Source: Bacteroidales bacterium (GTDB taxonomy: Bacteria > Bacteroidota > Bacteroidia > Bacteroidales > F082). From it: a stretch of DNA of 64,000 nt. The translations under genes and the position numbers were made by a program. Positions 6,258 through 48,249 of this stretch are shown piece by piece. How positions within the stretch are numbered: position 1 is the stretch's first letter; the number at the start of each line of letters is the position of its first letter. The DNA is taken from assembly GCA_015493525.1 (NCBI GenBank), contig WGCY01000015.1, positions 62,001 to 126,000 of the forward strand, read 5' to 3'. The notes below the pieces were generated by a model, which was given only the letters and a program-made list of their open reading frames with translations, searched no databases and had not been told where the DNA came from.

Positions 6258-6408
6258 CGGTCTTTTTGTTCTTTTTTCTAAGGGAAACACGTAATTTCAT
6301 CCTTTTTCCTCAAACCGTTCCGGGCGTCCCCGCCCGGAAAAACAAACCACCCCCTTTTTTTTTGATAAAATTTATTTCGCCGAAAAAAATAATACAACTT
6401 TCATATTA

Positions 6409-6650: not shown

Positions 6651-6868
6651 ACAATGCGAATGTATAACTGTATAACAAAGAAAGGAGGTAGTGTGGCAAA
6701 GATACAAAACTAAGCTAAACCAGCCTGTCTTGCAACGAAAAATGCAGAATACGGCACGCAGTGCATACCGCGAAAACAAAATGAGAAGACAGGGACGTTT
6801 CACCCATTAAATGAAACAGGTGGTTCCGAAAAACCTTAATAGAGTAGGGAAAATTAATTTTTTAAAAT

Positions 6869-10533: not shown

Positions 10534-10650
10534 CCTTTCAGGTCGAACCAGACCTGAAAGGTGGTAAGACAGGTTGATATAACAAGCTATTATTTAACAT
10601 GTAAACCCTGAGCATCTCGACTTTTCAAGTCCTGATCGACTTGAAAAGTC
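10534..10650. repeat. Two perfect palindromes in tandem
   Basis: 10534-10561 has an 11-bp stem (CCTTTCAGGTC and its complement) around gaacca. 10619-10650 has a 13-bp stem (GACTTTTCAAGTC and its complement) around ctgatc. Stem sequences differ but both have six-base loops. The first hairpin may terminate the HD gene. A related stem (CCTTTCAGG) recurs at 48014-48045. Confidence 0.75.
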
Positions 10651-14280: not shown

Positions 14281-14385
14281 GATTTAATCGTTTAAAAATA
14301 AGCTGCGGGCTAAGGTAAGAAATTACCGGCTGCAAGACAAAGGATTTCTTCGGGCGGGGACGCCCGAAACGGTATGGAATGGAGA

Positions 14386-14482
14386 CTCGTCCGCGTCTGA
14401 AACGCGGACGTATTTATCTTTCACATTTGTAATGTATTGAGCTGTGGAAATACCTCTGCGTTACAAACGCGGAGGAGTTGTG
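14386..14482. repeat. 97-bp direct repeat, copy 1, containing two palindromes
   Basis: Nearly identical to 15023-15119: 4 differences in 97 positions, no indels. Each copy starts with a CGTCCGCGT...ACGCGGACG palindrome (14388-14410) and ends with a CCTC(T/C)GCGTT-aca-AACGCGGAGG palindrome (14453-14475), separated by 42 nt. A different palindrome (TTCGGGCG-ggga-CGCCCGAA) lies just outside at 14349-14368. Confidence 0.9.
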
Positions 14483-14827: not shown

Positions 14828-15296
14828 GACGTTATGGATATTAAACGGCCCTTGAACTACTTGCAAATATTATACCGGAATGAAAAAGAGCTGGAAAGCT
14901 GGTCGGGATTTGCCTGCCCGACCGTGTCATACAGGCGGGCAATCCCGACCTAAAGGACAAAAGGATTTATAATCCTTGTTTTCAATACATTCGGATTACA
15001 TCAACTTATGCCGGTACTTTCTCTCGTCCGCGTTTGAAACGCGGACGTATATATCTTTCACATTTGTAATGTATTGAGTTGTGGAAATACCTCCGCGTTA
15101 CAAACGCGGAGGAGTTGTGGTGAATTTGCGGTAACCGGGTGTGCGGCAATTCACGTGAGCATCCCGGTGTACTGAAACAGTATTAAATTCCCGGGACGCT
15201 CACGCCAGCACGCGTCCAAAACCCGGCGCAAGGCCGGCTCAGCGTTGAACGGTTATGATTATTTCCTTTGCTGATCTGGATTTGTAATCCCGACCG
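14828..15296. other. 469-bp gap filled with inverted and direct repeats
   Basis: No gene. In order: a long imperfect inverted repeat 14901-14950 (GGTCGGGATT... against ...AATCCCGACC), a palindrome 14961-14977 (AAGGATT-tat-AATCCTT), the second 97-bp repeat copy 15023-15119, and an inverted repeat 15154-15204 (CGTGAGCaTCCCGG against CCGGGACGCTCACG, one mismatch). Confidence 0.75.
15023..15119. repeat. 97-bp direct repeat, copy 2
   Basis: Partner of 14386-14482. The four differences include the first palindrome's loop, which here reads CGCGTT-tga-AACGCG, restoring the TT-NNN-AA centre that copy 1 lacks. Confidence 0.9.
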
Positions 15297-17659: not shown

Positions 17660-17763
17660 TTCGGGCGGGGATGCCCGAAACGGTTTGGTACAAGGATAGT
17701 GCAAGCAGATGTTTACGCCGGGATAGTTTCTCAGTATCGCTTCAGGCGGAAACGCCTGAAGCG
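17660..17763. repeat. Two palindromes with GNRA-like loops
   Basis: 17660-17679 is TTCGGGC...GCCCGAA around ggggat. 17738-17763 is an 11-bp perfect stem (CGCTTCAGGCG and its complement) closed by gaaa. The first shares its stem and following AACGG with 14349-14368. They are in the 399-bp gap between the peroxiredoxin and PfkB genes, which otherwise holds only the terminator and the promoter box. Confidence 0.75.
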
Positions 17764-48013: not shown

Positions 48014-48222
48014 AACCTTTCAGGTGGTCTTGCTCCTGAAAGGTTGGAAAAGTTGAATCATGGAATTGTTCAAGCGTCAGCATAGACTTCTTCTGCCGCT
48101 CTTCAGGGTTTGCAACCCTGAAATATTAACTCTTGGCTCTTCCGGATTTGCAATCCGGAAGTTTGTAAAGGTGGATTTAAAATCCACATCCCTTGGTAGG
48201 GTCGGGATTACAAATCCCGACC
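48014..48222. repeat. Cluster of five palindromes with different stems
   Basis: In 209 bp: 48014-48045 (AACCTTTCAGG stem, 10-nt loop), 48102-48122 (TTCAGGGTT-tgc-AACCCTGAA), 48139-48161 (CTTCCGGATT-tgc-AATCCGGAAG), 48171-48187 (GTGGATT-taa-AATCCAC) and 48200-48222 (GGTCGGGATT-aca-AATCCCGACC). All are perfect. The last four share the TT-NNN-AA centre, yet no two stems are alike. They lie between the convergent ends of the TonB receptor and amylase genes. Confidence 0.88.
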
Positions 48223-48249
48223 AGCAAAGACCGGTAAATAAATTTGTAT

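Follow-up and report, generated by a model that had tools for sequence, protein, structure and literature searches.

The closest described systems to the palindromes of this locus are REP elements and their RAYT proteins (TnpAREP), relatives of the HUH/Y1 single-strand transposases. In two REPtrons whose REPs are perfect palindromes, a mismatch in the stem seriously lowered or nearly abolished cleavage, swaps of the stem sequence had a modest effect, and the loop bases were crucial; the same main text reports that in E. coli an unpaired stem bulge is required and the loop sequence is not selected (PMC8266576). The main text of a 2018 survey describes a TnpAREP subclass, 2.6, mostly from Bacteroidetes, whose genes lie beside 'atypical secondary structures' that lack GT[AG]G, have copies elsewhere in the genome and required manual inspection (Quentin et al. 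2018, PMC6006769). CGTC repeats, reported from Bacteroidetes among five phyla, are defined in the main text of PMC3733652 by a terminal CGTC, TGTC or CCTC tag, a stem of 8-9 bp with A/T first pairs, and a loop of 4-5 nt.

The palindromes considered here lie in a window of 64,000 nucleotides (C15:62001-126000) from a Bacteroidales genome of 2.85 Mb in 53 contigs. They are very probably REP elements of Bacteroidota RAYT systems, often arranged in REPIN-like units. As described in its main text, the group 3 REP/TnpAREP system (PMC8266576) shares with them a RAYT flanked by its own REPs, a short perfect hairpin with a 5' foot and characteristic loop bases, and dispersed copies; it differs in that the foot here is GCT (GCT, GTT and others in relatives) instead of GTAG, the apex is TT-TGY-AA, and the stem is mostly 10 bp. 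Subclass 2.6 is alike in being mostly from Bacteroidetes, in the non-GT[AG]G structures flanking its genes and in their dispersed copies, whereas those structures are called weaker and the stems here are strong, perfect and 10 bp long, a comparison made by description only (PMC6006769). REPINs, as outlined in the main text of PMC3116915, are likewise inverted REP doublets dispersed as a unit, but in this genome's sample a third, untagged middle palindrome is present (11/15 pairs) and the ends have different stems. From the main-text account of the GTAG and CGTC families (PMC3733652), the combination of foot and stem-loop, the subfamilies with complementary stem changes and the dimers are familiar; the absence of GTAG, the pairing of CGTC, CCTC or TGTC within the stem (CGCGTT subfamily) and loops of 3 rather than 4-5 nt are not.

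The association between RAYT genes and hairpins is thus partly known, because PMC6006769, in its main text, notes the atypical structures of subclass 2.6. What is new here, set against the main-text description of that survey, is the foot and loop syntax, the three-hairpin unit and the covariation. The syntax was not found in the main texts of open-access papers, and a literal motif search matched 11 papers, all on unrelated subjects as judged by title and abstract opening.

Palindromes in the window

A TT-NNN-AA centre is present at all ten palindromes listed by an earlier note on this DNA (the one placed at 15096 occupies 15090-15112). Six are perfect with a stem of at least 8 bp (2776, 15025, 15090, 48102, 48139 and 48200); of the rest, 2750, 14961 and 48171 are shorter and 14453 has one mismatch. 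The four said to fall within 121 bp at 48.1 kb are indeed there and comprise one unit and a single REP. The elements of the window are as follows.

2750-2764, no strand: middle-type palindrome GGGATTACAAATCCC without a foot, a half unit with the REP at 2776
2776-2801, minus: REP CATTCGGATT, foot GCT; not found at this site in G002, G003 or G011
14385-14410, plus: CGCGTT-subfamily REP with an ACT foot; one side of its collar is altered (GTCTGAAAC)
14453-14478, minus: CGCGTT-subfamily REP, foot ACT, 7/8 outer pairs
14898-14950, plus: REP GGTCGGGATT, its loop enlarged to 30 nt where G011 and G003 have 3 nt
14961-14977, no strand: middle palindrome AAGGATTTATAATCCTT
14988-15000, minus: remnant of a right REP, reduced to a single arm; the REP is intact in G011
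15022-15047, plus: left REP of a 94-bp unit, CGTCCGCGTT with a TCT foot
15060-15072, no strand: weak middle palindrome ACATTTGTAATGT
15090-15115, minus: REP CCTCCGCGTT, foot ACT, right end of the 94-bp unit starting at 15022
15270-15295, plus: decayed REP GATCTGGATT, foot GCT, 6/8 outer pairs
48098-48123, plus: single REP with a GCT foot, a TGC loop and the stem CTTCAGGGTT/AACCCTGAA(A)
48136-48161, plus: left end of a 90-bp unit, a REP with a GCT foot, a TGC loop and the stem CTTCCGGATT/AATCCGGAAG; G011 orthologue CTTCCGGGTT/AACCCGGAAG
48171-48187, no strand: middle palindrome GTGGATTTAAAATCCAC without a foot, identical in the orthologous G011 unit
48200-48225, minus: right REP of the 48136-48225 unit, stem GGTCGGGATT, with its AGC foot facing outward; in tag orientation the loop reads TGT

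Rfam yielded no match to any hairpin; its sole match is a DUF805b RNA at 6817-6850 of the window, which exceeds the gathering score. Other repeated structures also occur. A second hairpin family with a 4-nt loop is found at 6318-6339, 14349-14368 and 17738-17763 of the window and at L005:2211-2232, with stems like TTCGGGCG/CGCCCGAA or TTCAGGCG/CGCCTGAA in which both arms vary; one pattern for it has 6 matches in the 814-kb sample described below. A repeated palindrome, CTTTCAGGTC-(short loop)-GACCTGAAAG, lies at 10534-10561 of the window and also in L038, L019, L020, L025 and L030, making six copies in that sample that are possibly terminators.

Anatomy and abundance

In its own orientation an element consists of a GCT foot, a 10-bp stem ending in TT, the loop TGY, AA and the second arm. 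Foot and loop alone predict stem pairing, since at least 6 of 8 outer pairs form at 39 of 48 GCT-N8-TTTGYAA sites (all 8 at 25), selected without use of the outer right arm, compared with 0 of 22 sites carrying the permuted feet GTC, CGT or TCG. A control with permuted centres gave 0 sites and is hence uninformative. The CGCGTT subfamily has a looser foot, NCT, and 14 of 61 NCT sites (G excluded) reach at least 6 pairs. No GT[AG]G tetranucleotide is seen at the foot, which in this genome is GCT or NCT. CGTC, CCTC or TGTC opens some CGCGTT-subfamily stems, within the paired stem; in CGTC REPs the tag is terminal and the loop 4-5 nt, while here it is paired and the loop is 3 nt. A search for expanded loops returned 18 candidates, 7 of which were judged REPs with loops of 22-30 nt (permuted feet, 0-5 candidates each), and five of the seven share a nearly identical 22-nt insert. 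This insert replaces the 3-nt loop at L026:5139, L026:5866, L008:9903, L012:1550-1594 (minus) and L015:14162-14206 (minus), and the L012 copy is conserved in the congener G011.

A scan against a dinucleotide-shuffled background, which the earlier note had proposed for the whole genome, gave a clear excess in a sample. In 814,501 bp drawn from 41 stretches including the window (29% of the genome), 37 perfect palindromes combine a 3-nt loop with a stem of exactly 10 bp (2.2 per shuffle), and 58 with a stem of at least 8 bp have TT..AA collars against 4.0 per shuffle (five shuffles); at the latter stem length all non-TT inner dinucleotides total 19. Over the whole genome, GGNTTTNNAANCC has 133+139 matches and its reversed pattern 32+33 (272 vs 65), GCTN6GATTTGYAATC has 64 and its reversal 0, and two further patterns give 106 against 2 and 72 against 0.

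Stems and units

The two arms change together, as had been claimed: among 56 copies preselected for at least 6 pairs, a copy's own arms pair at 7.55 of 8 outer positions and arms swapped between copies at 4.85 (sd 0.18). The companion claim that stems differ in almost every copy fails genome-wide, where only 19 left arms occur among 64 copies, six of them accounting for 47; the commonest left 6-mers are CATTCG (14), GGTCGG (12) and CCTCCG (8). Stem covariation is real, yet built of recurring subfamilies, the very outcome that the note had named as speaking against its proposal. The idea of free random stems was rejected because the stems recur.

Neighbouring REPs no more than 140 bp apart form 26 pairs (overlaps counted). 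Their feet point outward in 17, inward in 3 and in one direction in 6, so the inverted doublet by which REPINs are recognised is over-represented as a unit. Twelve of the 17 outward pairs span 83-102 bp, and a middle TT-NNN-AA palindrome of at least 5 bp without a foot is present in 11 of the 15 that do not overlap. One unit, L019:17352-17441, measures 90 bp foot to foot, and G011 and G003 contain matches to it of up to 93% identity. The two ends differ in stem in 15/15 non-overlapping pairs of this genome's sample. Obligate heteromeric ends were considered on that account and not upheld; they are only suggestive because, when ends are re-paired at random within subfamilies, 5.8% of the trials likewise contain no alike pair, and because at several RAYT loci elsewhere the hairpins on the two sides have identical stems.

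Association with RAYT genes

A PF01797 search of the genome identified five places. Two are full-length RAYT genes, on C14 (RAYT A, L004:1453-1998) and C49, that score 100 and 94.5 bits against NCBIfam NF047646 (cut-off 80); two of the remaining three were tested and are IS200-type, and a third RAYT match, on C47, is partial. Both full-length genes have hairpins on either side, GGATT-type at one and mainly CGCGTT-type at the other. A PDB sequence search with RAYT A gave no match at E<=1. As a separate observation, an IS200-type transposase gene in L001 has two different repeated hairpins on both sides in a REP-like layout (1279-1300, 1379-1398, 1956-1979 and 2054-2073).

Among relatives, 32 of 60 genomes contain a RAYT homologue, and hairpins of the same geometry were seen at 13 of 30 fetched RAYT loci, two of them with other collars. 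A wider set was formed from the best 80 of at least 552 homologues from named genomes (Pontibacter and Adhaeribacter strains included), nearly all labelled Bacteroidota and two Chlorobiota. At 66 of these 80 loci a hairpin with a 3-nt loop and a stem of at least 8 bp lies within 600 bp of the RAYT, and at 14 there is none. Hairpin density is 2.05/kb near the genes (188 in 91.8 kb) versus 0.07/kb beyond 900 bp (6 in 86.8 kb); the loop is TGC or TGT in 152 of the 188, the inner dinucleotide TT in 161 and the stem 10 bp in 118. When sites are chosen by foot and apex only, those with a GCT foot number 104 close to these RAYTs (86 with at least 7/8 pairs) and 3 far away, and those with a GTT foot 23 (22) and 3. 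Other feet are also well paired near them, namely GTC at 8 of 12 sites, which had been meant as a permuted control, GGT at 5 of 6 and GAT at 2 of 3; the control feet TCG, CGT and TGC have no sites and CTG is paired at 0 of 2. The GCT foot is accordingly not universal among relatives, just as the CGCGTT subfamily uses NCT here. Within 78 stop-free proteins of the set, the HUH histidines H59/H61 and Y144 are 99-100% conserved. Outer-stem distance grows with RAYT divergence at 40 of the loci (rho -0.38, 0/999 permutations), although such a Mantel correlation of stem with RAYT identity can reflect shared descent.

Of 395 genomes of the phylum, 121 contain the stem core GGATTTGYAATCC, mostly in one or few copies. 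In 28 hand-picked genomes, a RAYT match (E<=0.001) accompanies four or more copies in 11 of 13 cases and the lack of any copy in 6 of 15 (Fisher p 0.024); one of the six matches is weak, and two of the 13 genomes rich in GGATTTGYAATCC have no RAYT match.

Comparison with congeners

At the 48.1 kb site the unit is present in G011, where both arms of the left stem are altered (A-T to G-C) and the loop is expanded; G002 and G003 have no element. The REP at 2776 is absent from G002 and G003, and a REP scan of the corresponding, longer interval in G011 found none. The L019 double unit is absent from G002 and in G003 is reduced to hairpins, in one of which the left arm of one REP is joined to the right arm of the other. 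A collapsed hairpin of this kind, with outer mismatches, lies at about 740-840 of L100 in G003. Conversely, G011 has a unit with a broken right REP at a site where this genome lacks one. An element missing from a congener could have been deleted there instead of never having inserted; the comparison showed no target duplication and no direct excision or insertion.

Both flanks of 13 of 37 REP clusters fall within the fetched G011 stretches. Twelve hairpins, chosen by eye from alignments with the congener, were judged orthologous: 7 have identical stems, 4 changed on one arm (3 to a G.T wobble) and 1 on both. Left out were the RAYT-flanking hairpins of L026, which are rearranged; L037, chance-like with 5/8 pairs; three hairpins whose orthology is unclear, namely 14453 and 15022 of the CGCGTT type and the decayed 15270; the right REP at 14.9 kb, which has lost an arm; and 2776, which is absent. 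The L038 site, once taken as a two-arm change, was dropped as its hairpins are not alignable. Because so many of the twelve are unchanged or altered on one arm, mostly by wobble, the pattern favours slow compensatory drift together with subfamily diversity over the copying of one arm from its partner.

Origin of the hairpins

Their position relative to genes invites the reading that the hairpins are intergenic terminators or mRNA-stabilising structures, selected as RNA and close to RAYT genes only incidentally. Depending on the minimum ORF length, 17, 15, 8 or 2 of 56 hairpins lie inside called ORFs. With the 80-, 100- and 200-aa gene sets there are 0 in divergent gaps, and convergent gaps hold 17/39, 20/41 and 13/43 of the intergenic hairpins; the tolerance of G.T wobbles fits an RNA as well. 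The convergent-gap enrichment nevertheless hinges on the gene caller, because the 150-aa set puts 7/48 in divergent gaps, and a terminator has no need for a fixed foot and an oriented loop, nor for an enrichment of about 30-fold beside RAYT genes (best 80 of at least 552). As a primary explanation it is unlikely, while a secondary RNA role may have followed insertion.

The earlier note had offered a choice between a selected hairpin and a replication mechanism that copies one arm from the other; acting as a template switch, this would give each copy a private perfect stem. Joint change of the arms agrees with such copying, as does the left REP at 48.1 kb, both arms of which are changed relative to the G011 orthologue. 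Against this, six left arms supply most of the copies, and the orthologous hairpins look like stepwise drift; the conserved hairpin holds, whereas arm-copying is disfavoured by the orthologue comparison and is quite improbable. That the palindromes arose by chance or form the fixed operator of a DNA-binding protein is scarcely credible, with palindromic symmetry the one thing found in favour: chance is contradicted by the excess at 10 bp, and the outer stem lacks the sequence conservation expected of an operator.

The preferred explanation thus remains REP elements of a RAYT system, by which the hairpins were probably spread. The note had regarded them as unlike ordinary REPs; its changing stems are real, yet the elements are REP-like because RAYT genes are flanked by them. 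A typical unit, about 90 bp in all, runs from a foot and REP through a short linker, an untagged middle palindrome and another short linker to an inverted REP and foot. In single-stranded DNA each REP is predicted to fold into a 10-bp hairpin with a 3-nt loop, of which the RAYT may recognise the TT-TGY-AA apex and the 5' foot, GCT in this genome and GCT, GTT or one of several others in relatives. It would require a paired stem of fixed length and little of its outer sequence. The REP pair could then be cleaved and copied or moved to new sites. Stems would drift by compensatory steps, often via G.T wobbles, because pairing would be selected and sequence not, giving rise to subfamilies that track their own RAYT. 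By analogy with the published REPtrons, a fixed foot and loop on a free paired stem would be the trace expected of an enzyme of the perfect-palindrome type; the bulge requirement in E. coli, as given in the main text of PMC8266576, is on the same analogy the opposite of a perfect-stem rule and counts against this explanation. Also weighing against it are the RAYT loci that lack such hairpins, the varied feet, the genomes in which GGATTTGYAATCC and a RAYT match do not go together, and the hairpins that fall inside called ORFs.

A broader proposal is possible, if rather doubtful: that one RAYT clade, spread over the phylum, recognises nothing but the TTTGYAA apex and a short foot (GCT here, differing from RAYT to RAYT) on a 10-bp hairpin with a free outer stem, that the mobile unit is a three-hairpin REPIN whose ends are kept different, and that through stem drift each RAYT comes to have REPs of its own.

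Implications for Bacteroidota

For the RAYT-linked repeats of Bacteroidota, the elements supply a concrete candidate syntax of recognition. About two hundred stem-covarying hairpins with a largely fixed loop can be compared with biochemistry on what TnpAREP reads, and the spread of REPs becomes a testable question in this phylum.
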